Shown here: positions 3,701 to 49,635 of the stretch, piece after piece | Numbering within the stretch: the first letter of the stretch is position 1 | Layout of the letters: every line of letters starts with the position of its first letter | Made by a program: the position numbers and the translations under genes | From: Saccoglossus kowalevskii | Lineage: Eukaryota > Hemichordata > Enteropneusta > Harrimaniidae | Reading direction: 5' to 3' | DNA: 50,315 nucleotides | NCBI RefSeq assembly: GCF_000003605.2 | Contig: NW_003124896.1 | Location: forward strand, 360,897 to 411,211 | The notes under the pieces: model-generated | Databases searched by the model: none | Seen by the model: only the letters and a program-made list of their open reading frames with translations | Told to the model about the DNA's origin: nothing

Positions 3701-6700
3701 TGGTGATTCTACCTGGTGCTAATTTCCTGAAATCGTTACCAGTACTATAAATTGTTTAAACTTTGCTACTAGAAATTGTGTGATTCACTGTCTGTGTAAA
3801 GTTACCCAGTAATGTTTTGTGGTAAAACTCAAAAATACACAAAAAAATTGCAGGTCCTTTGTGGTTTTAGTTTAAGTCCTCTCAACCCATCTATGACAAA
3901 AATAGGAACTAAGTTTTGTCATACATGTGTGTGGAAGTATACAATTAAATGGTTTATGTGATTAGGTCTTTGCCGATTTGGACGTATTGATATTGATGTA
4001 TTCTGTCATAGTTGCTTTCAACAAAACTTTTCTTGTCAAGTAATCGTCTCAAATCAATTCCAGTATTGTTATTGCTTTATCAAATAATTGTAGAACAATT
4101 TTTATTTCTTGATGATTACAGTTTACTTCTACTGTAGTGGGTTCCCATATGTTCCTAGTATGCTCTGATTTCAGCTATAGCGCCCTCTACATGTACATGT
4201 ATCTGTTGCTGATGGCAAAATAACATGAATATTACAGACTTTTCATTATTTGTACATAATATTTGTTTATTTAGAGGATACCGTAAATTAAGCACAGAGA
4301 GATACAGTGAGAGTATAAACGGACGTGTAAAAGTTGATGCAACCATGTACTGTCTCATTTATTATAATGAATCTTCCTATACATCTGATCAACGTATGAA
4401 GCCCAGAACTGGGCATGTCATAAAAATTGGTGGAGCTTGCTATAAACTTTGTTTTGAAACATGCCTGCCATTTTGGAAACATTGCATTATTTTTCTGTTT
4501 TTTTTTTTTTTACGATTACAGTGATTAACCTTTTCACCACCAGACTTTCTCACCCAAGTTCATTGGCCCTTTTTTTCTAAAATTCTTCACTATTTCTGGA
4601 AATGAATCCTAATTTTGGAGCTAACAGACAAAATTTGAGTCAATTTTTAGTTTTTACTCACATTTTAGTCTAAAGTGCAGACGATAAATGGGACTGTTTT
4701 GTGAATTTGTGCTGAAAAGAGGGAACTGGTGGTGAAAAGGTTAATGTATATTATCTACAGGAAAAACTGTTTAAGTAACACACAGTAATTTCTCTCATTG
4801 ATTTGCCCTTCCAACGTGAAGTAAATTGCTTTTCTATGTAAAGCCTAATACACCAAATATTTTATTTAAAAATTCCTGAACATGTTAACGCAATATTTAT
4901 GCATCTTAGTACTGCTGCATCGTGTATGAAAATGTGTCTTTGTTGTACATCGTTGATGTAATTTCCATTTAATCTATGGATCAATCAATCAATGTCATCG
5001 TAATTATACATACATCGACAGTTGAATGCATGTAATTTTTGCATTAAAAACCATGGATTCAAACGATCACTTCATGTTTCAACTTGCTTGCTTTTATTTT
5101 GAGACAAAACCAATGCAGACTTAACATTAAAAATTAAATTTCAGTAAAGGTGCATAATTGTGGTGTGTCAGGTGGTGCTTTAAAACCCATTTTTGAATTC
5201 ACTGTGACTTTATTTGTCATCTCTGGTACATTACAAAATGTATATGATTGCTTTGGATTATTGTGATGGATGTTTTTTTCTTTGCTAAATGTATCGGGAC
5301 ACATGATGTACATCCATGTGTTTTTTACTCCGTAGTCAACTCCACTATAATAAATTACAAACAACTATCCACTGAACTCTTCCCAGTCAATTTGTAAATC
5401 ATATCTTACCAAAATCTTGTTTTCTAACACTGGCTAAAAAGAGTTTTACAAGTACACTGAATGCATGAAAAATAAACTTGTGAAAAAAAAGTTGTATTAT
5501 GTGTACATTTTGTGTTATCTTCATATCGTGACTGTTGTGGGGGCTCTGTTGTTTTTTGGCATTGTTAGAATCAATGTTTCCTGTCAGTACCACAAATCTA
5601 TCTTGGTGTGAGTACATGTATGTTGTTTCTGATTTTACATACCGATACAAGTCCCTTCCCCTTCTATTGAATGAGTACAACAAATATTTTGACTTGGTGT
5701 GATCCCAGGGTGTGAGCATGCCGATTCTGATTTTACTGAAATACATACATCACCATGATCTGCATATTCAACTACCTTTGGAACCTGTCTTTTCTACAGC
5801 ACATGGCGGATTGTGCTACACCCTACAATGGAGATCAGGATTTCACATCAAATGTCAAGACTGAAGGCGTTATTGTTATTGAACCGCAACACAACAACAT
5901 GGAGGAAATGCCTCGCTCTGCCGTGTCACCTGAAGTCATCCGAAATGTACTGTCTACGTACGCCACGGGTATCGGTGTTCCAATACAGTTCATCTTTTAC
6001 CCGCTGTTAACTGCAGTGGCTGCAATGATGCGAAGTCATACCCAGTTGCGCCTAGCACCCCTCTGGACGGAGCCGGCAATACTGTGGACAATAGTGACTA
6101 CGGGTAGGGGGGAGAAGAAGACAGCGGCTATGAAGATTATCGCTGATGCTGTGAAGGAGGTGGAGGAGCATATACGGCAGGAACAGAACAACGTACATGT
6201 TGTATACACTGACGGCAATGAGAGCCACCATCCATCGTTACACATGACCAATATGCAATTTACATACAGTAGTTTTCGTAAACAGATGGGTGAAAACTAC
6301 AACCAATGCTTGCTTCTGCATGATGATATTTCAAGTCTATACGAACAACTGGAACATAAAACAGACTCCCAGCAATGTGATCGTAAAAAACTATACAGTC
6401 TGTACGGAGGTGAGCCATGGCTTACAGACGAGAATAAGCGGTCATCGACACCGAATACACATTTCAATTATACAGGTAAGACCAAATCACTATTGTATGC
6501 TTTACAACTTTATTTTTTCTGTCAAAACAAATGTCATATGACAAATTTTATTTTCGGCCAAGTTTGAATGAACGGTTTGTATCATACACATTATTTGGCA
6601 GTCAGTCTTTCGAAGTTGTCGATTATCAATAAAGAAATCACATCAGTCTCATCAGTAAATACATTTTGTACAATGACTACTGGTACATGTATATATTTTA

Positions 6701-9700
6701 TAAGGCAATGTGCTACCCATCACAGTAGATGTTGCATATTTGATTTTAATGCATGCTTGTATGTGCTTACTCGCTTACAGAGGTATGTTTATGGTCAAAA
6801 TAAGTTATATTTTGATAATTTAGTTTATTGTATACGCAACTATTTGCATACATTAGATTCTATTGAAGATGCGCTACTATTGAAGCTAATACTGTAACAG
6901 GGAATAAAATATGTCTTGCACTCATCATGGATTTTAAGCAGAGCTGGGGTTGAATTTGTTATTGGATCTCAGTTATGACTAACACAGTAAAAGTGTTACA
7001 CACACAACGTAGATAATTATTAATTATTTTCTTTTTTCAGGATTTCTTCATCCAAACAAAGCCAAAAGTCTTCTCAAAATGGAGAATTCAGAGGGGTTCA
7101 GTGACTGCCACGCTGCCATCATATTCCCACAGCCAATCAAATTCTACTTCAACCACTTACAAGTCCAATCGGAGACGTTGATGACCCTGGGTCAAGTCTT
7201 GGTCAGTATCTATAATGTACATAACGAAGAGAGAGAATACTATCTCAGTGATGGGGCCAAACAAGGGTTTGCCGATTTCTATGATAGGCTAGAGGATTTG
7301 AAAGAACAGGTAAGCAAAGTATTACTATAGCTGTCTTATTATAACTGTATACGCCCATCCCTCGTGTGTGTTGGTGCCCCTCCCTATGTATTATGCTGAC
7401 ATCTCTACCCCAATTCAGTTTGCATTCACCTACAAGCTAGTTTTGTATTACTGGATCTGAAGTTTATATAACACGGCCTTTCTTCACAAAGTCACAGTAA
7501 TATCAATTACCACTGTCCTATCACCAACATTTTTTTCCTTATCTGCTGGATTCTAAAAAAATCCCTCAAAATGTTATCACTTCTCAAGAGTTCAAATAAG
7601 TGTTTCATTTGATTAAATTTTAATCGACAATCTGTTGCTCGTAGCATGTTTGGTCATATCCAGAAAACAACGGCAGATAAAAAAAAAAACAATACTTCAC
7701 TAACTGAGTGAAAAATTCAATAGCGGAATAGTCAAAAAAGCACAATATCAAAATTTACCATCAGGTAATCCCTTAAACAAACATTGGTATGGCGTATGGA
7801 TTTCCGTATTTGTCTATATCTAAGCTTTCAGAAGATGTATAGGTTGTTTTACTTTTAGAGAATGTCTGAATCACGGATCAATTTGTTAACATCTTTTACG
7901 TTTGTTACTATCTTAAATTGCCACTAACATTTTGGTATTTTACAAGGAGAGAAATTCTCAAAAATCTTCTCTGTTACAATATTTCACGAGTTTCCAAGTC
8001 TTGGTGTCTTTAATGTTGTTTGCATTACCCCCCCTCCCCAAGATAGCACAGGAAATAAGATTATCGCCACTGCCAAAATAGCCATTTTAAATACAAATAG
8101 TGAACCCCAATATTGAAGTATATTATTGTGAAATATATGCATACCAAATTAAATACAAATGTGACATCAAGATCAGTCTATCATAACAATGTTTGATGTG
8201 GTGTCAATCGTAACTGTGAGAAATACTGTATTGTACTGTACACCTCCTCAAATAATATACGCTGCTTTCGAGCAGTTTATTTATTCCTCGCTATGTAAAC
8301 ATTGAATTTTAAAACAACTTTTTTCAGCTATGATCAAAGATATTGTCGTTTGCAGCTCAAGTATACGATGAACATTTATTTTTGTCAGACAAATCACAAA
8401 AATTTTGTTGTGTTTGAACGTTTCATTGGGATCTTTAAGTGAATTTGAGATGAATTCAAATTTTGCATTACTGAGCGTGTTACTGAGCACATGTGCAATG
8501 CATTATGGGAAAAATACTTATTTAAAACAATGGGGAAAATATCACTCTAGAAATGCAACAAGGTTAAGATTCATATCAATCCTCGGGGGCGGAGCTACGT
8601 CACAGACGTTCTATGTTGCTAAGACGCGCACCACTGTACCACGTATTTCTATGGGCTTTGTGCACGCTGCTGTGGAACGCCGATGGAGCTGGTGAAAACT
8701 CAAGAAAACAACACAAACTCAACTTTGAAGTAATCCTGAACAACCAAATTCATATATGTTACACACGTAGGGCTAATCTTGTTACACTGTTCAGGGAACT
8801 TTCAACAACCATTGCAAAGTACCGTTTTCTGCAAGTTTTTGGTCTTTGTTTTCACCGCGAGGGTTGCCAGGCAGTCGAAAATGCCCGGATGTCCGCCCCC
8901 GAGGATAACAGTATATAATTTTTTTATCTCAAAATTTTGAAACATAAAGAAAATGAAACCATGCAAATATTTTTTGTGGTATGAATGGAGTATGGAGAAA
9001 ATAACTATTCTATTCGTCTCAAACTTCTTTTAGACAGCGAGTCACAGTGATTTTGTATCAGTAAACATTCATTCATTCATACATTCTCAGTAACTTTGAA
9101 CCTAATTGATAATGTCAAATAATTGAACAATTTTTTCACAGTATTCTAATCATTTTCATATAACCATGACAACATGCACGTAGTTTTCTTTAAAAAACCT
9201 CATGGAATTGTATTTATTTTATTTTTTCCAGACGATCGGCAATGAAGAGTGTCAGTGTGTGCTCACGAAAGCACAAGGTCAGTTGGCCAGAGTTGCAATG
9301 GTCATTCACTGCCTTTACACATCCATAGAATCTCTCAGTATTGGCCTTGTGACATGCGATATCCCACTGCAGATCCCTGTACACACTATGCAGTATGCAG
9401 TACACATCATGGAGCATTGTCTGCATGAAAAGTTTTCGGTCATGCCACAATGCGAGCTGCTGGCATCACATTTCGAAGTGCCGATGGTGACAGAGACGAC
9501 AGTGCATTACAAAGAACCATCGCCACCAGCACCTTCGCCTCCCGATGTTGATATGAGACTATCGAACATCAGTGACGATCCATACAACTACACTGATGTC
9601 ATCAAGCGGTACCCGTACAATGTCAAGAGTTTGTTGGAATATGGTCGGGATGATTTAGCGCCATCATTTGTAGCCCAGCGCAAGCTCATGCCCTCAGTCA

Positions 9701-9984
9701 AGAAACCCTTATTACCTACTCCTCCGGGGAAAACTCACAACAGATATCCAACAGAAGCGGCTCGTCATTACTTACATAGGCTTTCAAATCTTGGCCTCGG
9801 AACCATTGACATGCCCGAGCCTGACAGGAGGCCTACACTATTCACATTCCGCAAAAGGAAATATGAAGACTTGAGTCCACGTGCAAAACGCATCCTAACT
9901 GAGTTGAAAGTTACTGAGGAAAGTTATAAAAGGCAACGTGTATGCGAAGAAGTGCGGCGTCCAAATGTGAACATTTGTACCTAA
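708..9984 (+). CDS. RIIa/dpy-30-like plus DUF3987-like protein (gene A), 5 exons, 625 aa
   Basis: Proposed exons are 708-779, 2544-2651, 5800-6475, 7041-7309 and 9232-9984. All introns are GT-AG, the phases agree and the total is 626 codons with the stop. Exons 1-2 (residues 1-60) resemble an RIIa/dpy-30 docking domain: DYIKRHGLDGLF leads into LLQDRPMEPISYLI, the usual L-L-x-x-R-P-x-x-P-x-x-[FY]-L pattern that dimerises and holds amphipathic helices. Residues about 103-460 resemble DUF3987, a P-loop primase/helicase-associated family of phages, plasmids and some animals. Visible parts are a helical GVPIQFIFYPLLTAVAAMM segment, EPAILW, a degenerate P-loop GRGEKKTAAMK (G162-T168), a Walker-B-like LLLHDDISSLYEQL and a basic C-terminal block. 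That C-terminal block is shared with gene B. Biochemical role unknown. Exons 3-5 are the firmer part. The join from exon 2 to exon 3 rests on phase alone, so the RIIa exons could belong to another transcript, with ATG 5803 as the start. Confidence 0.66.
780..2543 (+). other. Intron 1 of gene A
   Basis: AT-rich intron between the two RIIa-like exons, with donor GTGAGT at 780 and an acceptor ending TGTAG at 2543. It holds homopolymer T runs and no coding signal or complete transposon that I can support. Confidence 0.45.
2652..5799 (+). other. Intron 2 of gene A
   Basis: A 3.1-kb intron from GTAAGT at 2652 to TTTCTACAG at 5799. It carries the TTAA-flanked MITE at 4525-4744. I looked for further exons that might continue an RIIa protein in another way, for example an adenylate-kinase P-loop as in AK8, and found none. 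Confidence 0.4.
4525..4744. mobile_element. TTAA-flanked MITE, piggyBac-like
   Basis: The ends are inverted repeats: TTAACCTTTTCACCACCAG on the left, and its exact complement CTGGTGGTGAAAAGGTTAA on the right. A TTAA sits at each edge (4525-4528 and 4741-4744). TTAA target duplication with a CC-starting terminal repeat is typical of piggyBac-type elements. The 212-bp interior is non-coding, so this is a non-autonomous copy. It lies in intron 2 of gene A. Perfect termini suggest a fairly recent insertion. Confidence 0.75.
8579..8906. mobile_element. 328-bp inverted-repeat element (MITE) in intron 4 of gene A
   Basis: ATCCTCGGGGGCGGA at 8579-8593 is repeated as its exact complement TCCGCCCCCGAGGAT at 8892-8906. 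The GC-rich ends stand out in an AT-rich intron (7310-9231). The interior includes short frames but no transposase I recognise. No clear target duplication is visible, so the superfamily is open. Confidence 0.6.
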
Positions 9985-11582: not shown

Positions 11583-13282
11583 TATTCTGATTTTTAGAAT
11601 TCAAATCTATACTAAAATGGTTTCATGTTCTGAGAACTATATACTGTTAGTTATAATAATTCAATCAAATTAATTTAAACTCATAAAAGTTAGATGAATT
11701 TTGAAATTAGGTGAATTCAAAACAGTTGTCAAATGAATAATGGCTGCCAGTTGTAAAAAAAATAATGTATTTTGACTCCAAGAAAAAGAAGCTTTGTTTT
11801 CATTTACTAATCACGAAACAAAATGTTGTATGACAAAATGGTTAGACAACAGTTGTCGCAGTATTCATAGTTTTCAACGTATCGCTGTTTGTTGTTTTTT
11901 CAGCCAAATGAGGGCAAAATACTATGAGGGTATTACGAGGATACAGCAAAATATGCACGTAGAGAGTCGGTTATTGTATCGACTGATTCGTAGCAGAGGT
12001 TGATGCGTTACCATACTGCTTATTGCCGTCACACACTTTGACAAAAGATTGACAAAACCATATGTTTTGAGGTCATAGTTCACAACTTTTTGTGATAATA
12101 AAAAGTACCATCAGCAGGGTTATATTCAGAAAATAAAAGGTGCCTGTCTTTAAACTTTATCAAATTAAAATATAGCAGTCCCTAGTCTATAAACACAGAC
12201 TTAAAATTTTGTTGATTATTTATGGATGTTTTGTAATTTACTGGTACCGGTAATTTTTATTTAAAATTGTATTGGTTTGTAGAACCTGTCAAATAAAACA
12301 GATGACAGATGGTTGGCTAAAAGCCTGATTTACAACTATGAGTTATCGCCATTACCGGTACTGCATTATTACCTGGTATGTGTGAATGTACCGTATGTAT
12401 GTACTGCATACAAGTAGAGTAGAATGTGCCATTCTTTTCATGTCGACCTGAAATATTTTGTTTTTTCCTCTATTCCCATCTCAAAAAAAAAAGAGAACTA
12501 ACAATTTTAAAACTGTTTACAATATTCATTGTACAATGTAAATGTCGCTTTGTTTTCTCTCATTTTTTTTTTCTGTCACTGTTACACTCATTCAATGTAT
12601 AAGGAGTTATCATTTTTTTATTGTATTACAAATTCTTTTTATGTAAAGAATTTTTACCTCAAACATTCTTCTGTTTTCTTCTTTCCCTATGGGAATAAAA
12701 AATTGTGTTTAATAAAAGGTATTTTTTTTTTTAACAAACACATGTTGGGAGCCTTTTAATTTTCCCTTGTGTGTCTGCTGTCTGTTTGTCATGTTCCCTG
12801 ATATCACAGAATTTTAATGTTCAATGAATGTGGTACATTTGCAGACTGGATTACTTTTTGGCGCATATTCAAGCTTATTTTCCCCATTCAAACAAAGTTC
12901 AAAACAAGGAATAAAATTCAGTTTCTGTCTGTCTGTCTTAGGTCATATTTCAGAACTATCTGGAGTGAATCTGTTCATTCATTCCCTGTGCCTATGGTAA
13001 TATGCATAAAATTTAATTCTAAGCAATCTGTCATACATATAGTCGGTTAATGGATATTGACATTGATGATGGTTGCTAGGGGTGAGTCCCTATAGTAGCA
13101 ACCATAAGCACACCCTCGGCAAACGTTTAAAGCATGATTTATCCTTATAACTCCACTGTTACCTGAAAATTGTTTCACTCTACATGGGGGATGACCTCAT
13201 TATGCACTAATGTGATTCAAAGCAAACTGTCATTCATGTAGTTGTACATGTACTGTAAAATGAATATTGACAGATATAGGCT

Positions 13283-15050
13283 ATCAGGGACATCGTTCCA
13301 TTGATGACACATAAGCTCCAAGGGACATCGTTCCTTTGATGACACATAAGCTCCCAGGGACAATGTTCCTTTGATGACACATAGGCTCCCATGGACATCG
13401 TTCCTTTGATGACACATAAGCTCCCAGGGACAATGTTCCTTTGATGACACATAGGCTCCCATGGACATCGTTCCTTTGATGACACATAAGCTCCCAGGGA
13501 CAATGTTCCTTTGATGACGCATAGGCTCCCAGGGACATTGTTCCTTTGATGACACATAGGCTCCCATGGACATCGTTCCTTTGATGACACATAGGCTCCA
13601 AGGGACATCGTTCCTTTAATGTCACATAGGCTCCCAGGAACATCGTTCCTTTGATGACACATAGGCTCCCAGGGACATCGTTCCTTTGATGACACATAGG
13701 GTCTCAGGGACGTCGTTACTTTGATGACACATAGGCTCCCAGGGACATCGTTCCTTTGATTACACATAGGCTCCCAGGGACATTGTTCCTTGGATGTCAC
13801 ATAGGCTCCCAGGGACATCGTTCCTTTGATGACACATAAGTTCCAAGGGACATCGTTCCTTTGATGACACATAGACTCCCAGGGACATTGTTCCTTGGAT
13901 GTCACATAGGCTCATAGGGACACCGTTCCTTTGATGTCACATAGGCTCCCAGGGACATCGTTCCTTTGATGTCACATAGGCTCCCAGGAACATCGTTACT
14001 TTGATGACACATAGACTCCCAGGTACATCGTTCCATCGATGACATATAAGCTCCAAGGGACATCATTCCTTTGATGTCACATAGGGTCCCATGGACATCG
14101 TTCCTTTGATGTCACATAGGCTCCCATGGACATCGTTCCTTTGATGTCACATAGGCTCCCGGGACATCGTTCCTTTGATGACACATAAGATCCAAGGGAC
14201 ATCGTTCCTTTGATGACACATAAGATCCAAGGGACATCGTTCCTTTGATGTCACATAGTGTCCCATGGACATTGTTCCTTTGATGACACATAGGTTCCCA
14301 TGGACATCGTTCCTTTGATGACACATAGGCTCCCAGGGACATTGTTCCTTTGATGTCACATAGGGTCCCATGGACATCGTTCCTTTGATGTCACATAGGC
14401 TCCCGGGACATCGTTCCTTTGATGACACATAAGATCCAAGGGACATCGTTCCTTTGATGACACATAAGATCCAAGGGACATCGTTCCTTTGATGTCACAT
14501 AGTGTCCCATGGACATTGTTCCTTTGATGACACATAGGTTCCCATGGACATCGTTCCTTTGATGACACATAGGCTCCCAGGGACATCGTTCCTTTGATTA
14601 CACATAGGCTCCCATGGACATCGTTCCTTTGATGTCACATAGACTCCCAGGGACATCGTTCCTTTGATGTCACATAGACTCCCAGGGACATCGTTCCTTT
14701 GATGACACATAAGCTCCCAGGGACATCGTTCCTTTGATGTCACATAGACTCCCAGGGACATCGTTCCTTTGATGACACACAGCCTCCCAGGGACATTCTT
14801 CCTTTGATGACACATAGACTCCCAGGGACATCGTTCCTTTGATGACACATAAGCTCCCAGGGACATCGTTTCTTTGATGTCACATAGACTCCCAGGGACA
14901 TTGTTCCTTTGATGTCACATAGACTCCCAGGGACATCGTTCCTTTGATGTCACATAGACTCCCAGGGACATCGTTCCTTTGATGTCACATAGGCTCCCAG
15001 GAACATCGTTACTTTGATGACACATAGACTCCCAGGGACATCGTTCCATC
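13283..15050. repeat. 35-bp minisatellite, about 50 units, with a 244-bp higher-order repeat
   Basis: The unit begins GGGACATCGTTCCTTTGATG and ends ACACATAGGCTCCCA, 35 bp in all, repeated head to tail about 50 times. Variation is concentrated at a few positions: GATGACAC versus GATGTCAC, ATAAG versus ATAGG or ATAGA, and CCAGGG versus CCATGG or CCAAGG. A block of seven units (244 bp) is itself repeated, for instance with CTCCCGGG at 14156 and 14400. The unit has no stop on much of the minus strand, which produces long open frames; these are by-products of the repeat and not genes. Confidence 0.92.
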
Positions 15051-15262: not shown

Positions 15263-15494
15263 TGCCAAAACTAGATATATAATGGGAAATAAAATTTTAA
15301 TTTAGTTAAATTGATCAAGAAAAAGTTCATGAAAATTGGTACAGTCTTCTCATAATGACTGAATTCTTTCAGTAAACTGTGGTAAAAATATAATTTTATT
15401 GCTATCCAAAAATATAGTTTAGTATTCCTGTAATTAATCTATTGAAAATGTTTTTATACTCTCTTATGAATTTAATTGAATATTAAATTCCATA

Positions 15495-15965
15495 TTTTTG
15501 TACAGTTTATGTATACATATATTGTAATATTGGGCATAGTTAAATTTATTCAGATTCTAAGTCCAATTTTTGTACATTCTATGTATACATAAATAGTACT
15601 AATATTTGTCAAGATGTCAAGTCAATAATTTGTACAATTAATGTGTACATAAATTATACTTCATTCTGACATGATTCTAACATACCCGGTAAACTGTTTT
15701 GGTTACTCTTTGATTCTTACCAGTAGTAATGATATTGTACATTTTATGTATATGTAAATTATACAATATTTAGGCGTTGAATCCTATGCAAAAAATCTGT
15801 ACATTTCTAGTATACAATATACATTAATGAATTTGTATAAAGTGTGTATACAAATAATGTACTGCTGTTTTCTTGTATGTATGAATTTTGTATACATACA
15901 ATGTACACAATTTAAAAAAGATATACTTTTTGTACAGAATATGTATACAATTATTATACTATTGG
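15495..15965. repeat. Array of TGTACA / GTATAC palindromes
   Basis: A motif of the form TTGTACA, a few bases, TATGTATACATA, then ATTATAC recurs about eight times, near 15499, 15570, 15629, 15734, 15797, 15840, 15885 and 15929. Spacing is irregular, about 45-105 bp. The units are diverged but the two palindromes TGTACA and GTATAC are kept. It lies about 600-1050 bp upstream of the gene B start codon. No function is shown. Confidence 0.6.
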
Positions 15966-16551
15966 GGCGTACAATTTGGTGATGTGTTATACTTTTTATT
16001 TGTGATATTGGTGAGTATATGTGAGTATATATCACTGATGCTACAACAACAAATTTTGACCACTTTCAGTTTTGCTTTAAACTAATATGGCCACCAAACC
16101 ATGTTATCAATCACAATTTTGAATGTCAGGTGCAGCGTTTCATAGTATTCCATTCAGTGTTATATTCAGTGATTCTCTCATACAAGAGAAAAAAAAACAG
16201 AATAATCAGAGCACTAACAAAAGACCTCTGATAATAGCATCAAATTTTAGTTTGCTTTCAGAAATTTGACTTTCACTGTATTTGCACTTTTTTTTTTTAT
16301 TTCATCATTGTGTAATTCAAGTTCAGACAAGCTCAGGATTACTAATATTGCGTTGTAATTCATGACAACGAGATGAACTTGCTCATACATTCAAGTTGTG
16401 GAGCATATGGCTTGAAGTCAATCAGTTGAACATCATCAGCACAACTGGTACATCACAGACTGAGGTTGGAGACATACACAAATTCTTGGAATCATATTTA
16501 TATTGTATCTATTTCAAACTGTGTTATTGATTACGTGCCAGATTGTAAACA

Positions 16552-19500
16552 ATGGCGACCTTGGAAGCGGAGCACAAGTTTTTGGGAGAGCTTCGATGGA
16601 AAGCCGAAAACAACAAATCAACCTATAATCCCCTTATAACTGGAGAGAAATATACAAAGTTGATACAAAGCATGAAATCAGCCACTCTACGGGAATCAAA
16701 AACAATGCATGATAGATATATATTAAGAAAGTATGATGTCATTCAACTTGGTGGGGTTGAAAGGCTTGTCAAGAGACAGTCCACTGGAGATGCAAAAAAG
16801 AAAATCTATTTACCAATTGAAGACATGTATCAAGTTATCATGGCAAGTCATATTGATGAAGGACATGGAGGAATTGATAAGGTCAGTAAGGAGCTACTGA
16901 AGAAGTTTGCAAATATTAGCAGAGAAACAATCGCCTTGTGTCTGATGCACTGTAACAAATGTGCTGGAGAAAAAACGCAGTCTAAAAATTTGACTAAATC
17001 GAAGGATGAACTTCTAAGTAATATACAACCATCTCCGAAGTCGTACCAAATTGATTTGGTAGATATGGAAGTTTCCCCTGATGCTGATTACAAGTACATT
17101 CTCTGTTGCCAGAATCTATTCAATAATGTATGCACTTTGTACCCGCTGAAAACCAAGACCCCAAGCGAAGTGGCTTTCAATTTACTGCCATTATTCAAAC
17201 AGCAGCGTTATTGTTCTATACTGAGCGGGAAGGGGAATGTCTTTGTTACTAGTGTTGTTGCGGAACTGACAAAACAGAGGCATGACCTTGTAATTACATC
17301 CCATGCTCATGTTCAAGATCTAGATAATATTACTGTCGGTATTAAAGATGTTGTCTTTGCTTGGATGGTGAAAAACAAAACAACTCGCTGGTCGGAATGC
17401 CTAAGCCTGATACAAAAGAAAAGGAATCAACCAAGATCCCAGTTGCTGTGTCCCATTAGTGGTTTGAAAAATACCATTGCTCATCTGATGAATTCTGAAA
17501 AGTGCCAATCACTGAACATACCAAGAAATAACCCAGGTGCACATCTACTAGATCCGAGAATGAACCAAACACATCACTTGGTTTCTAGCGTGTCTACAAA
17601 TGATTGTTATGAAAACTCAAGAAAGGCCCAATCGCAGCATATGATTACCAGTGTGTCTACAATAGATTGTTATGAAAATGTAAATACACATCTGGTAGAT
17701 TCAAGACAGGACCAATCGCAGCTCTTGGTTTCCAAGATGCCTACACTAGATGGTTATGAAAATGCAAGTGTCAATCTGATAAACCCAGGAAGTGACCAAT
17801 CACAGCACCTTGTGTCCAGTATGTCTGCAACTGATCATTATGTAAACACAGGTGTACATCTGATAAACCCAAAAAGTGACCAATCACAGAATTTTGTTTC
17901 CAGCATGTCGGCAAGTGATTGTTATGAAAATTCAAGTGTAGATCTGGTAAACCCAAGAAGTGACCAACCACAGCACCTTGTGTCCAGTATGTCTGCAACT
18001 GATCATTATGTAAACACAGGTGTACATCTGATAAACCCAAAAAGTGACCAATCACAGAATTTTGTTTCCAGCATGTCGGCAAGTGATTGTTATGAAAATT
18101 CAAGTGTAGATCTGGTAAACCCAAGAAGTGACCAACCACAGCACCTTGTGTCAAGCATATCTGCAACTGATTGTTATGAAAACACAAGTGTACATCTGAT
18201 AAACCCAAAAAGTGACCAATCACAGAACTTTGTTTCCAGCATGTCGGCAAGTGATTGTTATGAAAATTCAAATGTACATCTGGTAAACCCAAGAAGTGAC
18301 CAACCACAGCACCTTGTGTCAAGCATGTCTGCAACTGATTGTTATGAAAACACAAGTGTACATCTGGTAAACCCAAAAATTTACCAATCACAGAACTTTG
18401 TTTCCAGCATGTCGGCAAGTGATTGTTACGAAAATTCAAGTGTACATCTGGTAAACCCAAAAAGTAACCAATCACAGAACTTTGTTAACCAATCACATCA
18501 GTCTTCTTTGGACAGTGCTAAAAATGTCATTACCCATTTGCTGGAACCCAGAAACAACCAATCACAGTCTTTGACTTCCAGAAACCTGAATGTAACTTGC
18601 ATGGATCAAGAAAATCATATTTTAGATGCAACACACACTGACTTGGGAAGAAGTTATCAGTTCAATTGCAGTTTATCTGAAAGAAATGATCCAAGTATAC
18701 GAGTACCTCCCAGTTTATTGATGGTATGCATTACATCTTACTTTGCTGTATCTTTTCAGCCTAGTTCAGCTTGCAATAGAAAAAGATAGAAGTTTTTTTA
18801 GTACTTTAAATATACTTGTATTTGCATTCATACATGTATGTTCCAAGATACCCTACCTTGTATTCTTTTTGTGTAGGATCGTTTATTGGTATTTTAAAGA
18901 GGTAAAGTTCTAGAAGTGGTAGTCTGTGTGCTTTTCACCTTTTCATCTCGTAAGACCCTCTCTCCACAAGGGTCAAGAAATGCTGCTTAAAGGCCCAATT
19001 CAGTTGCCCTGGGCTAGTGTTTATTGGATTTGTGGCTATGCTAATGAGTCCTGTTAATCAGTTACATAGCTTATGTTTATAGAAATTCGTAGTTTATTTA
19101 CAAGTTGATAGCACTAATACCCATAAGCAACAAAGTATACCGGTATATTGGGCCAGTTAGACTTGCTTCCATAGAACACAGACCTGAGCTGCATAGACTA
19201 TCGACAATGATAAGCTAATATGAAACGTGTTACAAAGTGATGTGACATTGATCATTTCTTTGAATTACGTTTATTTCAACAATAGCGTTCATCTGAAATG
19301 CAGAATGGCATATCATATTCATTTGCCACTCTCATATTGTTGAACTATGATTCCACGGCGATGACCAGGATGCACGTATGTTTAGGATGCCGTCAAACTC
19401 GCTATGGTCAACAATAAAAAAATAGTCACTGCAAGGCGTTCACACTTTCACTCGCATAAATGCTGTTACTGATACGTGGCAATAGTAAAGATAATAAATT

Positions 19501-22500
19501 TGAGACGATGCATCACTGCGTACGAAGACCTGATGACCGACCACAGTTACTTGAAACACAAAATAAAACTGATAGATTCTGATACATTTCCTAATGTGCA
19601 CGAGGCCGGTTAGACAAGGAAAGTCGGAACTTGTATTATCTAAAATAAATATTTTTAGTCATTTGTTCTCATACTGTTAGCGTGACTGTAAAGGCTAGAT
19701 TCAGTAATCACGTTAAAATATTTAATTTTAGAGAAAACAAAAATTGTCACGATTCAGCTATGAGCTGGCGCATGGGCACGCAGTTACTGCATGGATTTGC
19801 CATTTTCTTAAACAACTGTAAAAAAAAGCCATGAAGAAGCCAGTAAATTAATTCGTACTGAGTCACATGTAACATTATTAGTGCGTCATCGGAAACTCTG
19901 AAGATCGTCTGGTCCGAGTGTCATTCCTGTTCTATTTACCATAATATGCTGCGCTACTTCCAGAATACGCATTCATATCATTAAAACAACTTGGGGTAAT
20001 TCTGGCTCGTACTCTCTGTGGCAACTTTTTAAATTTGCGAACACGATTTTCATTGTCTTCGTTGAATCCGCTATGTGATAATGAGAAAAGCATTAGGAAC
20101 TGTGTAAATGTTTTTGGAGATTGGACTCCAACCTAGGTGACATTGATTGACAGCAGTTAATTATTCAAGCTTAGTAGCATGTCTCTTTCCAGTTTGTGTT
20201 TTTGACATTTATCTGACAAAATCTGAACTCACACACTATTTATTTTCATATATATAATCACTGCCGTGATATTCATAGACACATACACCCACTTTGGCAC
20301 GCCATAATTGACCTGTAAGTTTGAGAAAACACGTCTTTACCGGAGAATAACTTTCTAGGAAATGCACATGTAATCCCCATTGTTTAGAAGCATATTTATA
20401 GTATACCTGGGTCTTTAAATGGAGAATGTTTTTCTACATGTGCAATTGGTTGATCATGCTGCCAATCTGAATATGCTAATTTTTCAAACAATGGATGACA
20501 GTTTTAGATTTTCCCCACACATCAGCTGAGAAATGCCACGTCACATTCATACATGTGTGTATTCCGAATACCAGTGTCAGCATTGTTCATATTCATTTAA
20601 TATTATGTCTAATATTTTATTTATAATCATTAATTTTACTTTTTAATGTTATATATATTCTCTATATCTATTCACTAATTCTTTTGTCCTGTTCAAAAAT
20701 GTGACTTTCTGCGAGTGAACGATACACCTGATAAAATATTTTGAAAAGTTTTTTATCAATATGTTCTTTTGCTTGAAATTTTGCATTAGTAAAATAATAA
20801 TTTGTTATTCTGTATTTGTGATGCAAACTCAGTTAAAATTATGACTTTTTCTGAAACAATTGCTTATAGTTGCACACTGATCACTTGTATCATAAAAAGA
20901 CATAAAGTACAAAACTATTGAAGTGACAACATATATAAACAATGAAAACAGCGAGTGTAATCACACATTGTTGAGGTAATTCTGTGCAATTTTTAGTTTT
21001 GTTCAGGATAATTGTATTCATGTTCTTTCTCTGATTGTACTCATCATGCGTATTTGTAAAATGTAAATGTAAGTAACAATGATTATTAAATAGGATTTCA
21101 AAACAAGTTCAAGTTTGCAAGCTGTAGCTTGAGTTGGCCTTGAATATTAAGTTGATTGATGGTTTTACACTGCACAAATAAATGAAATAATTGACAGGTT
21201 CACTAAATGCTAAAGACAAATTATAATGAGTGAGTTTATAGCAAGTTTGTGCATGTATTTTTTTTTTTTTTTTTGCTTTTTTTTTTTAAATTCATTGCTC
21301 TATTCATTGACCTGTTTTATTCGTTTTTTGTTCACAGCAAGATGTCTTTAGTATGCAAGAGGGAACTAGTGGGTCCACAAAGGAGTATGATACAGGGTGA
21401 GTGTTATTATCAAGAAAATAATATAAATCACTTTAGTTAGTTTCCTGTCAAATGAATGGGATTTGTGTGCATCTCTGATAACTGGGACTTATGGGTTGAC
21501 TCCTGTGAATCTGTTTGTGCATCTCTGATAACTAACTAAACTCACTAACTCGGACTTATAGGTTGACTTCCGAGGGTCCATCTGTCTGTTTGTTTGTGCA
21601 TCTCTGATAACTGGGACTTATGGGTTGACTTCCGAGGGTCCATCTGTCTGTTTGTTTGTGCATCTCTGATAACTAACTAACTAACTCACTAACTAGGACT
21701 TATGGGTTGACTTCCGAGGGTCCATCTGTCTGTCTGTTTGTGCATCTCTGATAACTGAGACTTATTGGTTGACTTTCGTGGGTCCATCTGTCTGTTTGTT
21801 TGTGCATCTCTGATAACTGGGACTTATGGGTTGACTTTCGTGGGTCCATCTGTCTGTTTGTTTGTGCATCTCTGATAACTGGGACTTATGGGTTGACTTC
21901 TGTGGATCTGTCTGTTTGTGCATCTCTGATAACTGGAACTTATGGGTTGACTTTCGTGGGTCCATCTGTCTGTTTGTGCATCTATGTTAACTGGGACTTA
22001 TGGGTTGACTTGTGTGAATCTGTCTGTGCATTTCTGATAAACTGGGACTTATAGGTTGACTTGTGTGAATCTGTCTGTGCATTTCTGATAAACTGGGACT
22101 TATGGGTTGACCTCCATGGATCTGTCTGTTTGTGCATTTCTGTTAACTAGGACTTATGGGTTGACCTCCATAGATCTGTCTGTTTGCATTTCGTGGCTCA
22201 AGAAATATATTTATGACTTGAAATTTCAATCGTCAATTTAGTAAGAGGGCGCCATTCAAGAGTATCAGGACCCTGTTCCCCAGTTTAGAAAAACCCCTGA
22301 TGATAAAATAAACTTGAACTTTACATATATTTCATAGCAAACAAAAACAAATATTTTTTGTATTAATTCATGACTAAATAATAAGTGACATTTAGAATCT
22401 TAGAAAAGTAAATTATTATTAGTGTGTATGTATATGGTAGTGAATATTTTTATTCTTCCAGTGTCTCTGTGACGCCACCAGTGTTCGAAATTAACTGAAA

Positions 22501-25500
22501 ATCATAAAAGGCCCGAATGACCTATGTCAAATTAAAACTGTAGGTTCTTCTAGCTAACTGTAGGCCCTGATATTTAACAAACAAAGACTAAACAGATAAT
22601 ACAAGCTTGCAATTGCAAAACCTTTATTTACTAATTAATCAGATATATTATCTGCAGGCTCAAAGAGGTCATCATCATTTCTTTCATCGTCACTAAACTC
22701 ATCAAAATCTTCAGAAAAAACACGATCACTGGCCGACTCTGAATCTGACATGTAGCTGACCGTAGGATCCTCGACAAGGCCGGCAATACATCACCTTGTT
22801 GTTGTTATCAAAAAGTAACCAGTCTTTGAACTCCGCCTGCCAGCTAACTTGGAATGTTCGTATTCTTGCTGTTTGTCACACCTTTCTTGTGTAGTTTCCA
22901 CGCGTTTAGCAGCAGGCTCCTGGCAGTTTAAATATCGCCACATACTTCGATGTAGACGTAACTCTGCAACTGTTGATACCAGCGTGTTCGATTCTGAACA
23001 TAAAATGTAAGCGCGAATTCTATTGGTTTGAATCGGAGGCTTGATCGGCCTACAACCAATCAGAACGTTTGTTACAGTTCCCACGTTCGCCGCATTTCGC
23101 GATCATTCGGCGAGCTTGAATTATGACTCGTATGCCCAGGTCGATGAGTGATGCCATTTGTTGTTCAAACGTGCAAGAAAACGCAATTTTGAAACAATTC
23201 TGGAGTTACTATCGATATTTATTATATATTTGGTCTTACAATCATACTAAATAATGCAACGTTTTTTTTAAATTTATGGTCGGTCACAAGGACTGATGGT
23301 TTTTGACAGCTCTAGGCCCTTTAAACCCACTGTCGGCGTGAGGCCGACGGACCGACGTTAATTTCGAACACTAGACGCCACTCACCACAAATTCAACAGT
23401 ATTTGTTTCTATTAATTAAAGGCTAAATTAAAGTTGAACTATTGGTCCAAAAAAAAAATATTAGGTTGATGAAATTTTGAAGAACTAAAAACAGCACATG
23501 CTGTGATTGTTCAAAAATTTTAGAGTAGGTATGTTTCCACGGTATTTGATGAATTTGGTTCATGATGTTTTTAAGTCACTGGCTCATGTCAAACCAAAGT
23601 TACAATTACTGTAAAACATGTCTTTTTCGCGAGCACGTCTTTTTAGCGAATTTAGCGAGAGAACTGATTCGCTAATTCAAGATGTCGCTAATGACTTTAT
23701 TATAAATTCAAAATGGCCAAGGCTTGGGGATTTGTATACAGTTATCCGTAATACATAAAAATCTGGGGTGCTTCCTAATTACACTTGACAGTTTTTCTTT
23801 GTTTTTATGGAAGTGATAACTGCCCATTTGTTTTGGAACACGACAGAAAAATATAGTGAAAACAGGAAATCAACAATGACAAGAGAGATTCGCTGAATCA
23901 ACATTTTGCTATTACATTTGTACGTCAGTTTACCATAATTCGCTAAAATTGCATGTCACTTTTTCAACATGTTTTACAACTATGTATCATGATTCATTTT
24001 CATAATTTAGTCAACATATCTTGTTCTAGGTCTGGTATATCCTCAAGATCAGCATCCCACCAGTCTGTTGCCATGCCAGCCAATTACTCTTTCACAAATG
24101 ATGTAGGAACTAAAAGAATGAGAACTGAAACTGAGTGAGTATATTCTGGTTGATTTTATTTCAGCTACATTTTCTGATTGAAACTGTCACATTTAAGTGT
24201 CAATCTGACATGGTTTTATTCCTTTAGTAAATTTCAATTATCAGTTCAACAAATTATGCAAAAATGTATATCTGTGATAATACTAACTTGACTTGCACTA
24301 GACTTACAGGCTCAATACAAATGGTCCAAATAGATTAAGGTTTTATTTGATTATACAATGTATCTTGCTTCTCAGTTTTAACAAGAACAGAGGAAAATCC
24401 CTAACGCCTTTTGTTATGAATTTTGTTTCACAGATCGCCGTCCTTGAAAGCAACTACTTCGAAACGCATTTCTTACTATACAAAACTTGCGCAGGCATGG
24501 AACATTCAATTAGATTGGGCCCAGCTTAGAATACCAAAGTTAATGAACTTTATACAGATCTATTCCAATATGTTTGGTTGTCCAGATGAGTACTTTCTAA
24601 TCCCGTTGTTGTCAATTGTCGCTTCATTGATGGGAAATAACGCTGAATGCAAAGTGACGCAGGTGTGGAAAGAGCCATGCGTCCTATGGATGGCAGTCGC
24701 TGCGAGAAAGGGTGAAGAGAGCTCATTAATTTATAGGAAGTTTCTTGAGGAATTAAAAATCACTGAACATAAAATCCAGCCACATCCGCAACAGAAGCTT
24801 TTGGACTTTCATCGTTTTGATACCAGGAAACTTTACTCGCCTATAAATTCACTGTCGCATGTATATCATCATTTGTCTACAAATCATAACCAACTGTTAG
24901 CAGTCTCGGAGGAGCTTGGTTTCCTTTATGATTTCCTCGCTGCTAAGAATCCCCAAGAGAAGAAGATGTTTACCAGTTTGTTTCACGGAGATAACAGCTG
25001 TGTGGTTGCCATGGAGAATCAGGAAACCCCTGAAAGCAAAACATCTCTGAACTTGATGGGATTCATGGAGCCGCAGGTTTTAGTGAAGCAGCTTAGTGTC
25101 AACAGTATTGATGACTTATCTGCTAGTCTTCTCATCTCCTGCCCACCGGAAAGAGATATTCTACTTGAGGACTTGAATCATGCCACGCCTGATTTATCAT
25201 TTCATGAGGTTTTCTGGCTGATTCACAAGGTGCATTCCAAGGAACACATCATGTACGAGTTCAATGAGGACAGTATGACTATTGCAAGATCCTACCTTAA
25301 TTCGCTAACGATTCGCAAACGAGAAGTGAACTTTGATGAGAATAGGCGGCTGATTCTCTGTAAGGCACGAAGCCAGTTTGTTCGGCTCTGTATGGTGCTA
25401 CAGTGTGTAAACAATGCCGTGGGTGCCGCTTACAACATGAAGCATGTGCTGCAGTTAACGTCACTGTGCGATACAGATGATCAAAGTTGGCATTCATCAA

Positions 25501-26607
25501 CAATAAGTTCTGATGTCGCGACAGCCGCTGCGTACCTTTCAGAGTGTTTCCTACTACAGAAGTTAGCGTTAATGCCAGAAGAAATGAAGCTCAACATTAA
25601 TCTACAGCAGGTAACAGACAACACCCCACAACCTCGTGTCCCCACACTGAAACAAGATGTCACAGATGAAAATGACGTGTCCTTGTCATATTGTCGAAGC
25701 CGCTCCAATTATGCATCGCTTGATCCAGATGAGCTTGAAGAATACTACGAAAGCCAGTACCCCAAATTTCCAGAAAACTGTGAGAACAACATCCGAAGTT
25801 TTTTAGCGTTTGACGGTGAATTCGTACACTCCAGTAAAGTGATGCAAGTTCATCTGATGCCTCCATTCCATACACCAGGTCCTGGTAAGAATAGGTAAGC
25901 TAAGAAAATTTTAAAAATAAGTTGAAAACTATATTTCTTTGACAATTTATTATTCTGGCAATTGTCACCTGTATATTTTTACATATTACATTAAAATTGC
26001 ACTTTCAGATGATCGCATTAGAATTGGGGTTTTGGGACTATTATGTATGATATAATTGGTACTTTCTGAGGGTACAAATTCAATAACAGAGAGAGTTTCT
26101 CAATAATTTTCCCTAAATGTGTACTGAACCATCAAAATACTAGTAGTTTCACCTTAGATGCACTGTAGACACGTGAGCACATGGGCTATATTATTAGAGC
26201 AAAAATGTAACGGTGCATGGAGTTTTTCTGATATAGTCTGGAATATTACGTTTTCTTTGTTAAGGTATGCGGCACCAGCAGCCAAGTTCTTCATGCGCAA
26301 GATGGCCAATCTTGGAGTTGGTAAACTGTTCAGAAAGGGTAACAAAGGAGGATTGATATTCATGAAGACGAAATGGGAAGATTTGGATGAGAACGCTAGA
26401 GGTCTTGTGGAACGATGCGGTGTCAGCGAGTTGGAGTATAAAGTTGGGAAACGATCTAGAGTTTCCAATGCTGGGAACGGAGACCTGATGGCAGCGTCAT
26501 TGACAGTTGTTGTTGATGATGATTCTTTGCCACCAGTTAACTTGTTAGAACAACACAATGAAGGTGTTTCAATGGCAGACAACCAAGAATATAGACTTGT
26601 TCAGTAA
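16552..26607 (+). CDS. Integrase-derived module plus 28-aa repeats plus DUF3987-like protein (gene B), 5 exons, 1379 aa
   Basis: Proposed exons are 16552-18723, 21338-21396, 24030-24134, 24434-25894 and 26265-26607. All junctions are GT-AG, phases agree and the sum is exactly 1380 codons with the stop. The start has a good context (AACAATGG) and an in-frame TAA at 16546-16548. Residues 100-137 form an HHCC zinc-binding fold (H100, H105, C134, C137). Residues about 163-290 resemble the integrase-like core of vertebrate KRBA2/SCAND3, itself of Ginger/Gypsy-type integrase origin; here it looks catalytically decayed, so a domesticated host gene is most likely. Residues about 330-660 are 28-residue repeats. 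Residues about 810-1180 match the DUF3987-like part of gene A (KEPCVLWMAV, LLAVSEELGFLYDFL), but the P-loop lysine is absent. The shared C-terminal block (NRYAAPAAKFFMRKMANLGV) crosses the exon 4/5 junction. Function unknown. The weakest link is the join from exon 1 to exon 2. Confidence 0.7.
17520..18490 (+). repeat. 84-bp coding repeat (28 residues) inside gene B exon 1
   Basis: The protein repeats a 28-residue unit: NPxSDQxQ, then a [HN][LF]VSSMSA segment, then a TDCYENTSVHL-like end. Eight units are well conserved from about 17780. Three or four more degenerate ones precede them. Two unit types alternate (DQPQHLVSSMSAT and DQSQNFVSSMSAS), so the DNA has a 168-bp higher-order period. The pattern shows expansion by duplication of unit pairs. 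The antisense strand is also open across 17771-18475, which follows from the repeat and needs no gene. Confidence 0.9.
18724..21337 (+). other. Intron 1 of gene B
   Basis: A 2.6-kb intron, donor GTATGC at 18724 and acceptor TTCACAG ending at 21337. The region is AT-rich with long T runs near 21259-21290. I see no transposon with recognisable ends and no other exon. If the donor is not used, the first exon reads on to a stop at 18787-18789 and would give a separate 745-residue protein. Confidence 0.45.
21463..22190. repeat. 62-bp minisatellite in intron 2 of gene B
   Basis: About a dozen diverged copies of a 62-bp unit that includes GGGACTTATGGGTTGACTT, CCATCTGTCTGTTTGT and GCATCTCTGATAACT. 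Some units carry an extra CTAACTAACTCACTAACT insertion, and the later units are shorter. The open frames across it are repeat artefacts. Confidence 0.88.
22479..23373 (-). mobile_element. hAT element, internally deleted, 895 bp
   Basis: The left end starts CAGTGTTCGAAATTAAC and the right end is GTTAATTTCGAACACTA, an inverted pair. The 8-bp target duplication GACGCCAC is exact on both sides (22471-22478 and 23374-23381), as expected for hAT transposons. On the minus strand a 50-residue frame (22943-22791) begins MWRYLNCQEPAAKR, like the N-terminus of some hAT transposases. Nearer the left end an acidic serine-rich tail (SDSESASDRVFSEDFDEF) ends at a stop near 22640. The catalytic middle is missing, so this looks like a deletion derivative that kept both ends of the coding region. 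It lies in intron 2 of gene B. Confidence 0.82.
23607..23982. mobile_element. TA-flanked MITE, about 370 bp
   Basis: CTGTAAAACATG at 23609-23620 is mirrored by CATGTTTTACA at 23968-23978, followed by TA near 23981. Subterminal sequences also pair (TTTTTAGCGAATT on the left against a TTCGCTAAAA stretch on the right). The terminal CTGTAAAA is shared with the 180-bp MITE family at 11399 and 29716, so both may depend on the same kind of Tc1/mariner transposase. It lies just before exon 3 of gene B. Confidence 0.6.
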
Positions 26608-38160: not shown

Positions 38161-41100
38161 TCAGACAACGGTAACAAGCTGTAATACTGGTGTGCTGTCC
38201 GAGTCCGTTGCATATTCCGGAGTCTGCTCAGTCAGTTTAATCTCACGTGCGCTCCGCCTTCGAATGAGAATTGGTCCAGAAAACAGCAATAATGCCGACA
38301 GGCATAAAATTAAACCACTGAAGCAATAACAGTAACGATAGTCTTGACTATTGTCGAATATCCATCCTGAAAACAATGTATAAATACATGTACAATAGGG
38401 TTAAGTATGACAATAAATGCAATCGAGGGAGATGTTTGACCATTTTCATTTTCATTATTCAACCAATGTGTCATTTAATCGCTGATCTACTAGTATTCAC
38501 CTATGCACCCTCTATTTTAAATAAGGAACTGCCTTTTCATCGTTAGTACATGTACATGTGCAGCCCACATGCGCGAGGCATCACGTGAGTGTCAGACGAC
38601 ATTTGAGTGAAGTGTACTAATATTGAACTTTGGATGGGTAATAAGAATATAATGGTATTAATCATTTGATGAGGTGTGTGAACAAAAACAATCACAGTAA
38701 CTCTAATCAAAGGTCAGCGTAGCACAATTGTACTGCACGTATTTATATTCCCCTACTAACACCACCAAGAGGTCATGAGGTGAAAGGTTTAATTTGGAAA
38801 GAAGTACGCTCATCTGAGCAATGTGTGATACACGTTGCGGCACTGTCAATCAACCGATATCATCCTGACCTCAATTGAACTATATGATTCTTAATAATAG
38901 ATTATGACTTAATTCGTATAAGCCATTAATGTCCATACGCCACGAGCCAAGCCAGTGACGCAACAGTTGATTGGCAAATCGCTAGTAGTCGGAACAATAA
39001 CACGGTCGTGCGAGTTGCAACACACTCGGTTGAATTGATCTGGATATCGAATAATGTTTCATTTTTATTATTCTGTGGACCAGGGTTGGATCGTGACTCG
39101 CGAGGGAGTGTTATTGAATTGCCGTAGGCATTTATAGTGAACTTACACAATCGCCAAAATCTGATATTTAGCCTTGCCATGTTTACAAACTGTCTGTCAT
39201 GCATCTGTGAAATATGTCCATAACAGGGTTTATATAAGAACCGTTGTCTTACAATGCGCGTTCGAATTTTTATGTAAATAAATGTTTTTAAACGCGTTGC
39301 ATACGTCGCATGGGACTCACGTCGAACACGACGTGGCGCGGACACGACGTGGCGCGACGAGCTTGGCGCTTCAAATAACGATGAAATAAGTCATACCTGT
39401 GATCGGCGGTCCAATAAGTGCGCCTAGTCCATGGCAAAGATTGCAGAATCCAAGAGCAGAAGGGAGCTTCGCCACGCCCACAAAGTCCTTCAACGTGACA
39501 GCTAGAAGAGGGTGATACACGCCGTTTGCAAGTCCGAATACTCCATACAGAATAGCAAGCCCGGTGTATTTTTCACAAAAATAACTTAAAATGTTGATGA
39601 ATCCACAAATGAATATACTTATTGCTAGCGCCCTCGCCGATGACAGTAGACCAGAGTCAATAACAACACCATGTCCAGCACGGCCTATTAGGCTTACGGC
39701 TCCTGTGATTGTCATTAAAGTCGTTGGTAACGGATAGGGTATTCCGAACGACTCGGCACGAGGCACTAGGAACAGCACCGTCGGGTAAAACCCAACTGCA
39801 ATGACGAAGTACGCTACTGCCATGAGAATAAATAAGGGGTTGCAGAATAAAGCAAAATCGATGAAATTAGATAAGAATTTGCAGCATTGTGTGTCTTTAA
39901 AATTCACACATGAACAACAGTGGACGTTTCTTATTTCTTCTACAACTATCTCAGTAGGGACGGTGACGTTATTTTGTAATTGAGCGTCAAATGCAGGATT
40001 GAGCGTCACGTTGACGTCATTCCACGTCAGCGCCGCGTCAGGACCACGCTCTTCATCGGTGTCGCTATCCAGTATATGTTCACCACCAGTTATTATTCGT
40101 TGGGGTGGCGGACGAAACAAGGCCCCGCAAATACATATATGTGCGTCCATCGCACCCACACACATTAGGGCATTTCTCCACCCGAATTGGTTGATAAGCA
40201 GCTGATAAACTTGGGGAAGCGCGATCCAACCAATGGCGAATCCAGAAAATACGATTCCATTGGCTAAGGCGTATTTTCTCTTGAAATATCGCGCGATGAA
40301 TGCGACACTTGGCGTCGACACAAGGCCGTATCCAAATCCTACAAAAAAAAAAACAACAACATGTAATCAGTATTATAGAAGGAAATCGAGATATTTCTAC
40401 AATTCGTTGGAATTTGTTATTATTCGCGTGATTTTTCTCGTCGTTGTCGTGTTGCTGTAAATGTATGAAATCAAATCGAAAGCAACGTTTCGTGGAATTC
40501 AGCAACTATCGACAATTAACAGTAATACTCCCGGATTGTCTCCATTTTTTTGTATCCGTGCGCGCACGCCACCACCTGGATGTAAAAAGTAAATAATAGC
40601 TGAATGCAGCTATTGTATCAGTCCGCGTATCTAGGCAATGTGGTGCCCGTCCCGGTCTTGTATATGTTTACTTTAATGAACATGCTTGTATGTAGTGACG
40701 TCACGTTATGATCATTGGTATTAAAACGAGGAAATGAATAATAAATGTGCTTATTTCGTGTATTACCTGTTACTATTCCATAAGACACGTAAAGATGAGA
40801 GACATCAATAGCGAGCGAACTTATAAATATCCCGATGGTAGATATGATACCGCCTGCCATTACAACAACACGGCAACCAAACCAGCAATTTAGTGCACTA
40901 GCAACCGGTCCTAAAATATAAAGAACATGCCGGTAACAATTTTGCGGGACGTTGAAGATCCTTATTGGTCCATCCGTGGCGGGAGGGAGAATTGTACAGA
41001 CAAGAACCAAAACTTAAGTACATGAATTACGCAACAATAATGTTTCTGTACTGCATACGTAAAGCCAAAAAATGAAAGTAGCAAAGAATTGTAGTTACTG

Positions 41101-42408: not shown

Positions 42409-43241
42409 GTTATGTTTCTTTATTGCCACTAGACTTCTACAAAAATAGAGAACAGACTAACATGAGGTTATCAGATACCAGTATTTCACAATCAGGTTTC
42501 GAAATTAGCGGAACACGAGCTTTATTCTTGAAACATTGTTTCAGTATCCCGAGTACCAACGCATCGAATGGTCCAGCGTCTACTGAATGGTTCAAACTGT
42601 ACATATTATTAATTAATATATTACGGATAAACATAATTATAGTTACATATGAGCTAAAATATAAAAAAAAAAAAAACTGCCGACCTAGACTTCTTATATA
42701 TGCTCCGCGTTCAGCTAGTCACTATATGACGTGTGTGTGCATACTATACCGGTATAATACGTACACATCACGCAGGGGCCATTGCAACGTGGTACTTGGC
42801 ACGTAAAAGGCAGGGCACACATCTCGCTACCCACCACTTTGACGCATTCTCCCCAAAATACCAGCATTATCATTATTTTCAAACTAATTTCATTAGAGTG
42901 GATTTTAAACTAATTTGTAATTAAGCAAAGCCTGACAGTTTAGATAAAATCCAACTTTCACGCGAAAAAAAAATGTGTTAGTTCTAGAAAAAGTTAGTTC
43001 TGAGGTCGCATAAATTTCACGTGGAAAAGTAAGAGCAAAATAAATAGAGAGGAGGATGACAACTACATTTATGTCGTCTGCGCGCTACGTGCCAACGCAC
43101 GACAACTAAAATAAGACCCGTAGACCAAACTAAATTGTACGACAAAACTAAAGTAATTAACATAAATAAAACTCCATATTAAATCGTGGAACGGAGAGAA
43201 TAAAGTTCGAAACATCCTTTAAATGTAAAAAAAACAATTAC

Positions 43242-49620: not shown

Positions 49621-49635
49621 AGTGTTTTAATCTGT

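Follow-up and report, generated by a model that had tools for sequence, protein, structure and literature searches.

Several host genes with integrase-derived parts have been described. Passages of PMC3424704 and PMC12863088 present NYNRIN/CGIN1 of mammals as a fusion between an integrase and a duplicated cellular gene, and Imagin of malacostracan crustaceans is portrayed in part of PMC12863088 as a single-copy gene that kept the H2C2 residues and lost the catalytic Asp-Asp-Glu (DDE) triad. KRBA2 and SCAND3 appear in a passage of PMC3257199 as host genes derived from the rve integrase domain, SCAND3 being a fusion, and Ginger1 elements are defined in a section of PMC2836005 by a YPYY motif, a GPY/F motif and terminal inverted repeats of 40–270 base pairs (bp). 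The domain DUF3987 is treated in part of PMC5862659 as a predicted helicase in the replication of mobile genetic elements. In a stretch of 50,315 nucleotides (nt) of Saccoglossus kowalevskii DNA (contig NW_003124896.1, positions 360,897 to 411,211; hereafter the window), we analysed a gene, called gene B, that appears to join both kinds of domain. We give a probability of roughly one half to the reading that gene B is a domesticated single-copy host gene, in which an integrase exon has been joined to the 5′ side of one of two tandem DUF3987 genes, the other being called gene A.

Gene B was rebuilt from the DNA as five exons with GT-AG introns throughout and a continuous frame. The exons total 4140 nt, corresponding to 1380 codons with a single terminal stop and thus to a protein of 1379 amino acids, and an in-frame TAA at 16546 lies 5′ of the ATG. 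The continuous phase, whole codon sum and upstream stop that had been put forward from the letters of this DNA alone (the sequence-only reading) were all reproduced in this recomputation. The features of gene B are as follows:

16552..18723, plus strand: exon 1, from the ATG to a donor at which the exon ends in ATG and the intron begins with GTATGC; integrase-derived module and 28-residue repeats, 724 codons, from the frame and splice check
16849..16962, plus strand: His-His-Cys-Cys (HHCC) zinc-binding ligands H100, H105, C134 and C137, from the profile alignment; Integrase_H2C2 E 0.0082, below the cut-off
17053..17337, plus strand: integrase core, with D168 kept (codon at 17053), G226 in place of the second Asp (17227) and T261 at the Glu position (17332)
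17551..18474, plus strand: eleven 28-residue (84-nt) units in frame, residues 334–641; period 84 and 10.4 copies in Tandem Repeats Finder (TRF)
21338..21396, plus strand: exon 2, 59 nt, phase 0 to phase 2, ranked first of two internal exon candidates
24030..24134, plus strand: exon 3, 105 nt, which can be skipped in frame; its splice scores are weak and lie under the exon-scan thresholds
24434..25894, plus strand: exon 4, DUF3987 domain, Pfam E 8.2e-10 and alignments
26265..26607, plus strand: exon 5, C-terminal region common to gene A, with the stop at 26605–26607

As in NYNRIN/CGIN1, an integrase is, in our sequence model, fused to a second gene; the mammalian gene, however, combines an endogenous retrovirus integrase with KIAA0323, whereas in gene B, which comes from an invertebrate, DUF3987 is the partner. 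Gene B resembles Imagin in being single-copy, in keeping the zinc ligands and in having a broken DDE triad. Unlike Imagin, which carries the YPYY motif and is derived from Ginger1, it carries another large domain beside the integrase and has neither Ginger1 motif, as residues 1–345 contain no stretch of the type [YF]P[YF][YF] and no GP[YF]. The HHCC ligands lie upstream of the core as in the retroviral and Gypsy-type integrase superfamily, but the full set of D, D and E is missing. KRBA2 and SCAND3 genes carry KRAB or SCAN parts, where gene B carries DUF3987; the likeness of its N-terminus to their integrases, suggested by the sequence-only reading, is putative.

The integrase origin of the N-terminus was borne out by a comparison with integrases of the same genome. 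Segments were drawn from 30 loci of the 150 scored PF17921 matches in the genome, 29 of which yielded a segment, and 18 segments of at least 150 residues without a run of N were combined into a profile that was searched against 683 targets (genes A and B, open reading frames (ORFs) of the window of at least 60 amino acids without N, and 500 shuffled sequences). Gene B was matched across residues 83–242 with an E value of 8e-7 and its exon-1 ORF with 2.4e-7, against 0.21 for the best of the 500 shuffles, which was also the next best target. A narrower profile built from four near-identical integrase copies gave 0.49 for gene B and 0.26 for the exon-1 ORF, with the best shuffle scoring better at 0.091. 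In phmmer searches, residues 1–340 found five matches among 76 ORFs of the same integrase loci (best E 2.8e-5, 16.2 bits), and among solved structures the prototype foamy virus (PFV) integrase was matched at E 0.009 across residues 84–298. The hidden Markov model searches proposed earlier divided three ways, with DUF3987 above its cut-off, Integrase_H2C2 below its own (at best 16.7 bits versus 25.5) and the rve profile without a match to the N-terminus.

The HHCC ligands are kept in the profile alignment, though the Pfam score stays under the cut-off. From the DDE triad only the first Asp (D168) is left, the second being replaced by Gly in the alignments to PFV integrase and to the same-genome profile; the latter covers only the two Asp positions and not the Glu, which reads Thr (T261) in the PFV alignment, with the neighbouring Val (V262) marked in a separate position reading. 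Judged from these alignments, the N-terminus of gene B is integrase-derived and catalytically broken. Because the second Asp and the Glu are lost, any role of the integrase part would be one of binding or scaffolding. Residues 1–333 are basic, with an isoelectric point of 9.3. Exon 1 also gave Pfam rows for DUF7468 (E 8e-5), Glyco_transf_8 (6e-4), RNase_P_pop3 (0.008) and others, all under their cut-offs and rejected; the rows that lie in the repeat, the three named ones among them, are taken as probable repeat or composition effects. A weak row for Vasculin, likewise below cut-off, covers residues 3–57 and thus lies outside the repeat.

By DNA, the integrase module of gene B is single-copy in the 572 Mb genome, and a genome-wide protein search with exon 1 at E 0.01 found nothing beyond exon 1 itself (10 candidates scored), in contrast to the 150 scored PF17921 matches of the same genome. 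Both results speak against exon 1 being a Ginger-like or Gypsy-like mobile-element copy that just happens to sit 5′ of a DUF3987 gene, an explanation that its integrase homology would allow and that we hold to be very improbable. An AT-rich, 19-nt inverted pair of 89 % does flank exon 1 (15936–15954 and 21008–21026), which would suit such a copy, but it is short and was taken as chance; none of the 16 inverted pairs listed for 15300–21330 flanks the exon at a length of at least 40 nt, as the 40–270 bp repeats of Ginger1 would, although repeats bearing insertions or deletions could be missed in this comparison. The loss of the catalytic residues likewise argues against a mobile copy.

In the viral_contigs protein search, neither exon 1 nor exon 4 of gene B had a relative, and phage records held no match for exon 1 at E 0.1 or for gene A exon 1 at E 1. 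By sequence, the PDB gave two chance-level rows for exon 4 and none for gene A exon 3, PADLOC gave no match, and in NCBIfam exon 1 had a single match at chance level. When viral_contigs was scanned for an eight-residue motif as a test for KRBA2/SCAND3, 11 stretches came up, none of which matched residues 1–340 in phmmer at E 1.

The second half of gene B had been described as DUF3987-like, as resembling gene A and as a P-loop-type domain, and the first two of these descriptions held. Exon 4 matches DUF3987 (PF13148) with 38.8 bits against a curated cut-off of 27 (E 8.2e-10), and its protein finds two places in the genome, gene B itself and gene A. A search of the whole genome with PF13148 at E 0.01 returned gene A only and did not list gene B, though the exon-4 protein passes the Pfam cut-off; gene A exon 3 had no match in the genome beyond itself at E 0.1. 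The gene A model comprises three exons and 564 amino acids and sits 6.6 kb upstream of gene B, and further exons 5′ of 5803 are possible:

5803..6475, plus strand: gene A exon 1, the paralogous part that keeps the Walker-A Lys-Thr; Pfam DUF3987 E 2.5e-8 for the ORF 5740–6564
7041..7309, plus strand: gene A exon 2; an alternative donor at 7318 likewise keeps the frame
9232..9984, plus strand: gene A exon 3, which carries the shared C-terminal region

In blastp the two proteins are largely collinear, up to residue 551 of 564 in gene A and residue 1332 of 1379 in gene B. They differ in that the gene A model has no integrase or repeat, keeps the Walker-A Lys-Thr and has its introns at other positions. 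Gene A itself has introns, belongs to a helicase family of plasmid type and lies in an animal-like genome. The DNA helicase family of PHROGs matched its ORF 5740–6564 at E 2e-7 and gene B exon 4 at only 0.009, and a tblastn search with gene A exon 1 gave matches on four plasmids, of which three are annotated as DUF3987; on two of these four plasmids, which were examined first, a primase-type gene lies directly upstream of the DUF3987 gene.

For comparison we assembled ten plasmid proteins, namely all four of the first search and six of the 16 new ones that a second search brought (19 records, three of them repeats); two of the ten are close Planktothrix relatives, and those of Salinibacter and Priestia are unannotated frames read here. 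All ten have Lys followed by Ser or Thr at Walker A and Asp-Glu at Walker B. Gene B shares their domain but keeps neither feature: in the alignments its Walker-A Lys is replaced by Ser (S875, codon at 24720), so that the position reads Ser-Ser, and Walker B reads Glu-Glu, whereas gene A has Lys-Thr and Asp-Asp. With the Walker-A Lys lost and Glu-Glu at Walker B, the DUF3987 half of gene B is probably without a working P-loop ATPase, contrary to the P-loop-type domain expected earlier, and the alignments suggest that it is probably a dead motor, a pseudo-ATPase derived from the DUF3987 family. A tree of 296 columns split genes A and B from the ten plasmid proteins with 98 % ultrafast bootstrap.

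As both halves have lost catalytic residues, gene B might also be a pseudogene or a decaying gene, once domesticated and now untranscribed or drifting. Its longer branch in the unrooted tree (1.81 versus 1.07 for gene A) and the near-neutral divergence of its repeats, described below, point in the same direction, but we regard this as unlikely, given 1379 codons without stop or frameshift and intact zinc ligands. That the exon-1 ORF stays open for 746 codons, to the stop at 18789 and, like both domain matches, beyond chance, despite the lost catalytic residues, supports the reading as a domesticated host gene.

This reading further supposes that exon 1 and exons 2–5 belong to one transcript, which we hold to be somewhat more likely than not. 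Splice sites were scored with a weight matrix, by which the exon-1 donor reaches 1.99 and is unique at that level within 17500–18789, and two higher-scoring donors lie further up in the same ORF (16750 and 16881). In the 5.7 kb gap (18760–24400), two internal exon candidates pass the thresholds, and exon 2 scores higher than the other; its length fits the phases, and it is open in the frame delivered by exon 1. The same exons could instead be divided between two adjacent genes on one strand, a stand-alone domesticated integrase whose ORF ends at 18789, followed by a DUF3987 gene that begins within exon 2 or upstream of it, an arrangement that we consider possible if rather doubtful. Opening of exon 2 from its acceptor in the exon-1 frame speaks against this division, though a second frame is open too, as does the codon score, which drops from −0.039 in the exon-1 tail (18490–18723) to −0.181 after the donor (18724–18786), in what is a weak test.

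A number of observations weigh against the fusion, and several would suit two genes. The exon-1 donor is only moderately good, and within the final 290 nt of the ORF a donor matching it would occur by chance with a probability of 0.40; the acceptors of exons 3–5 score low by the same matrix. Exon 2 is open in two of the three frames, so its openness tells little, and it contains an in-frame ATG (M730), and the stretch from the in-frame stop at 21308 up to the exon has none, so that exons 2–5 could form a separate gene. AATAAA motifs 3′ of the exon-1 ORF (19413, 19493, 19562 and 19644) could end an exon-1 transcript. Codon scores, trained on a small set, are weak; the frame of the model is favoured by them in exon 1, whereas in exons 2, 3 and 5 it is not. 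Neither the surroundings of gene A nor the rest of the genome yielded an integrase relative, and gene A does without any integrase exon that could be detected. Structure predictions lent no support either, with a mean confidence (pLDDT) of 37 for residues 1–342 of exon 1 and of 40 for 480 residues of exon 4 together with three gene A exon pieces, both too poor for a fold comparison. The P-loop of gene A is non-canonical (GRGEKKT) and its Walker B reads Asp-Asp, so that an ATPase activity of gene A is only putative.

To these points we add the repeat, which shows no amino-acid constraint, the nonsynonymous divergence between its copies being close to the synonymous one. Overall, the ratio of nonsynonymous to synonymous differences (pN/pS) is 0.91, calculated for units 2–11 together with a segment after them that does not count as a genuine unit; comparisons of like type within nine units gave 0.117 for pN versus 0.127 for pS, and 0.071 versus 0.074. 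From these near-equal values, only the frame and perhaps the length of the repeat look kept. Of the 28-residue repeat stalk claimed by the sequence-only reading, the repeat itself therefore stands with its eleven in-frame units, whereas a tolerant linker fits the values better than a stalk, and the repeat is probably a flexible linker. A search of the genome with the array gave 36 rows (138 of 270 candidates scored), two of them exon 1 itself, 31 in contig C4481 and two in C3055, these 33 all with internal stops, and one open frame in C4610 with 20 % identity. The 34 rows outside gene B were taken as composition matches, and no convincing relative of the repeat was found among the candidates scored.

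If gene B is the fused host gene that we favour, an integrase-derived exon from a mobile element would have been placed upstream of one of two tandem DUF3987 genes, and the product would be a double pseudoenzyme, likelier to bind and scaffold than to cut DNA or unwind it. Its basic N-terminal module, made up of the zinc fold and a broken RNase-H-like core, may bind nucleic acid or multimerise, and the probably disordered linker of 28-residue repeats would space it from the DUF3987 half. This ATPase-dead half could dock on a partner, the simplest being the product of gene A, in which the P-loop Lys is kept, and gene B might have a part in handling mobile-element DNA or RNA. In a more specific version, an invertebrate would have co-opted two mobile-element parts, a transposon or retroelement integrase and a replication helicase domain of plasmid type, into a single protein whose catalytic centres are both broken. 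Paired with gene A, this protein would recognise intermediates that arise when mobile elements replicate or integrate, and so serve as a sensor or a dominant-negative subunit; this version is speculative and appears improbable to us.

Should the exons form one transcript, gene B would combine a domesticated integrase with a helicase-like domain in one protein and would give DUF3987 an animal setting. Genes A and B, with the Walker-A Lys kept in one and lost in the other, would then be a ready pair in which to ask if an inactive motor controls an active one. Among the open-access papers searched, a coverage that leaves out most subscription journals, we found none on an animal DUF3987 fusion; those naming DUF3987 concern, judged by their titles, bacteria, archaea, phages and related elements.

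Intron 2 of gene B holds a tandem array at 21512–22186, seen as overlapping TRF rows with periods from 51 to 144. TRF also found a 35-bp array of about 51 copies between genes A and B (13276–15047) and a 16-bp array of about 43 copies at the end of the window (49634–50314). A major facilitator gene lies on the minus strand at 39371–42453, with PF07690 matching 39371–40363 at E 1.5e-22; its upstream ORF at 42052–42453 has no Pfam match, and its membership in this gene is a guess. The mitochondrial COX1 present in the assembly (L040, G000:C4830) can be translated with ATA as Met and TGA as Trp under table 5, which argues against the echinoderm code, and it contains no AGA or AGG codons.

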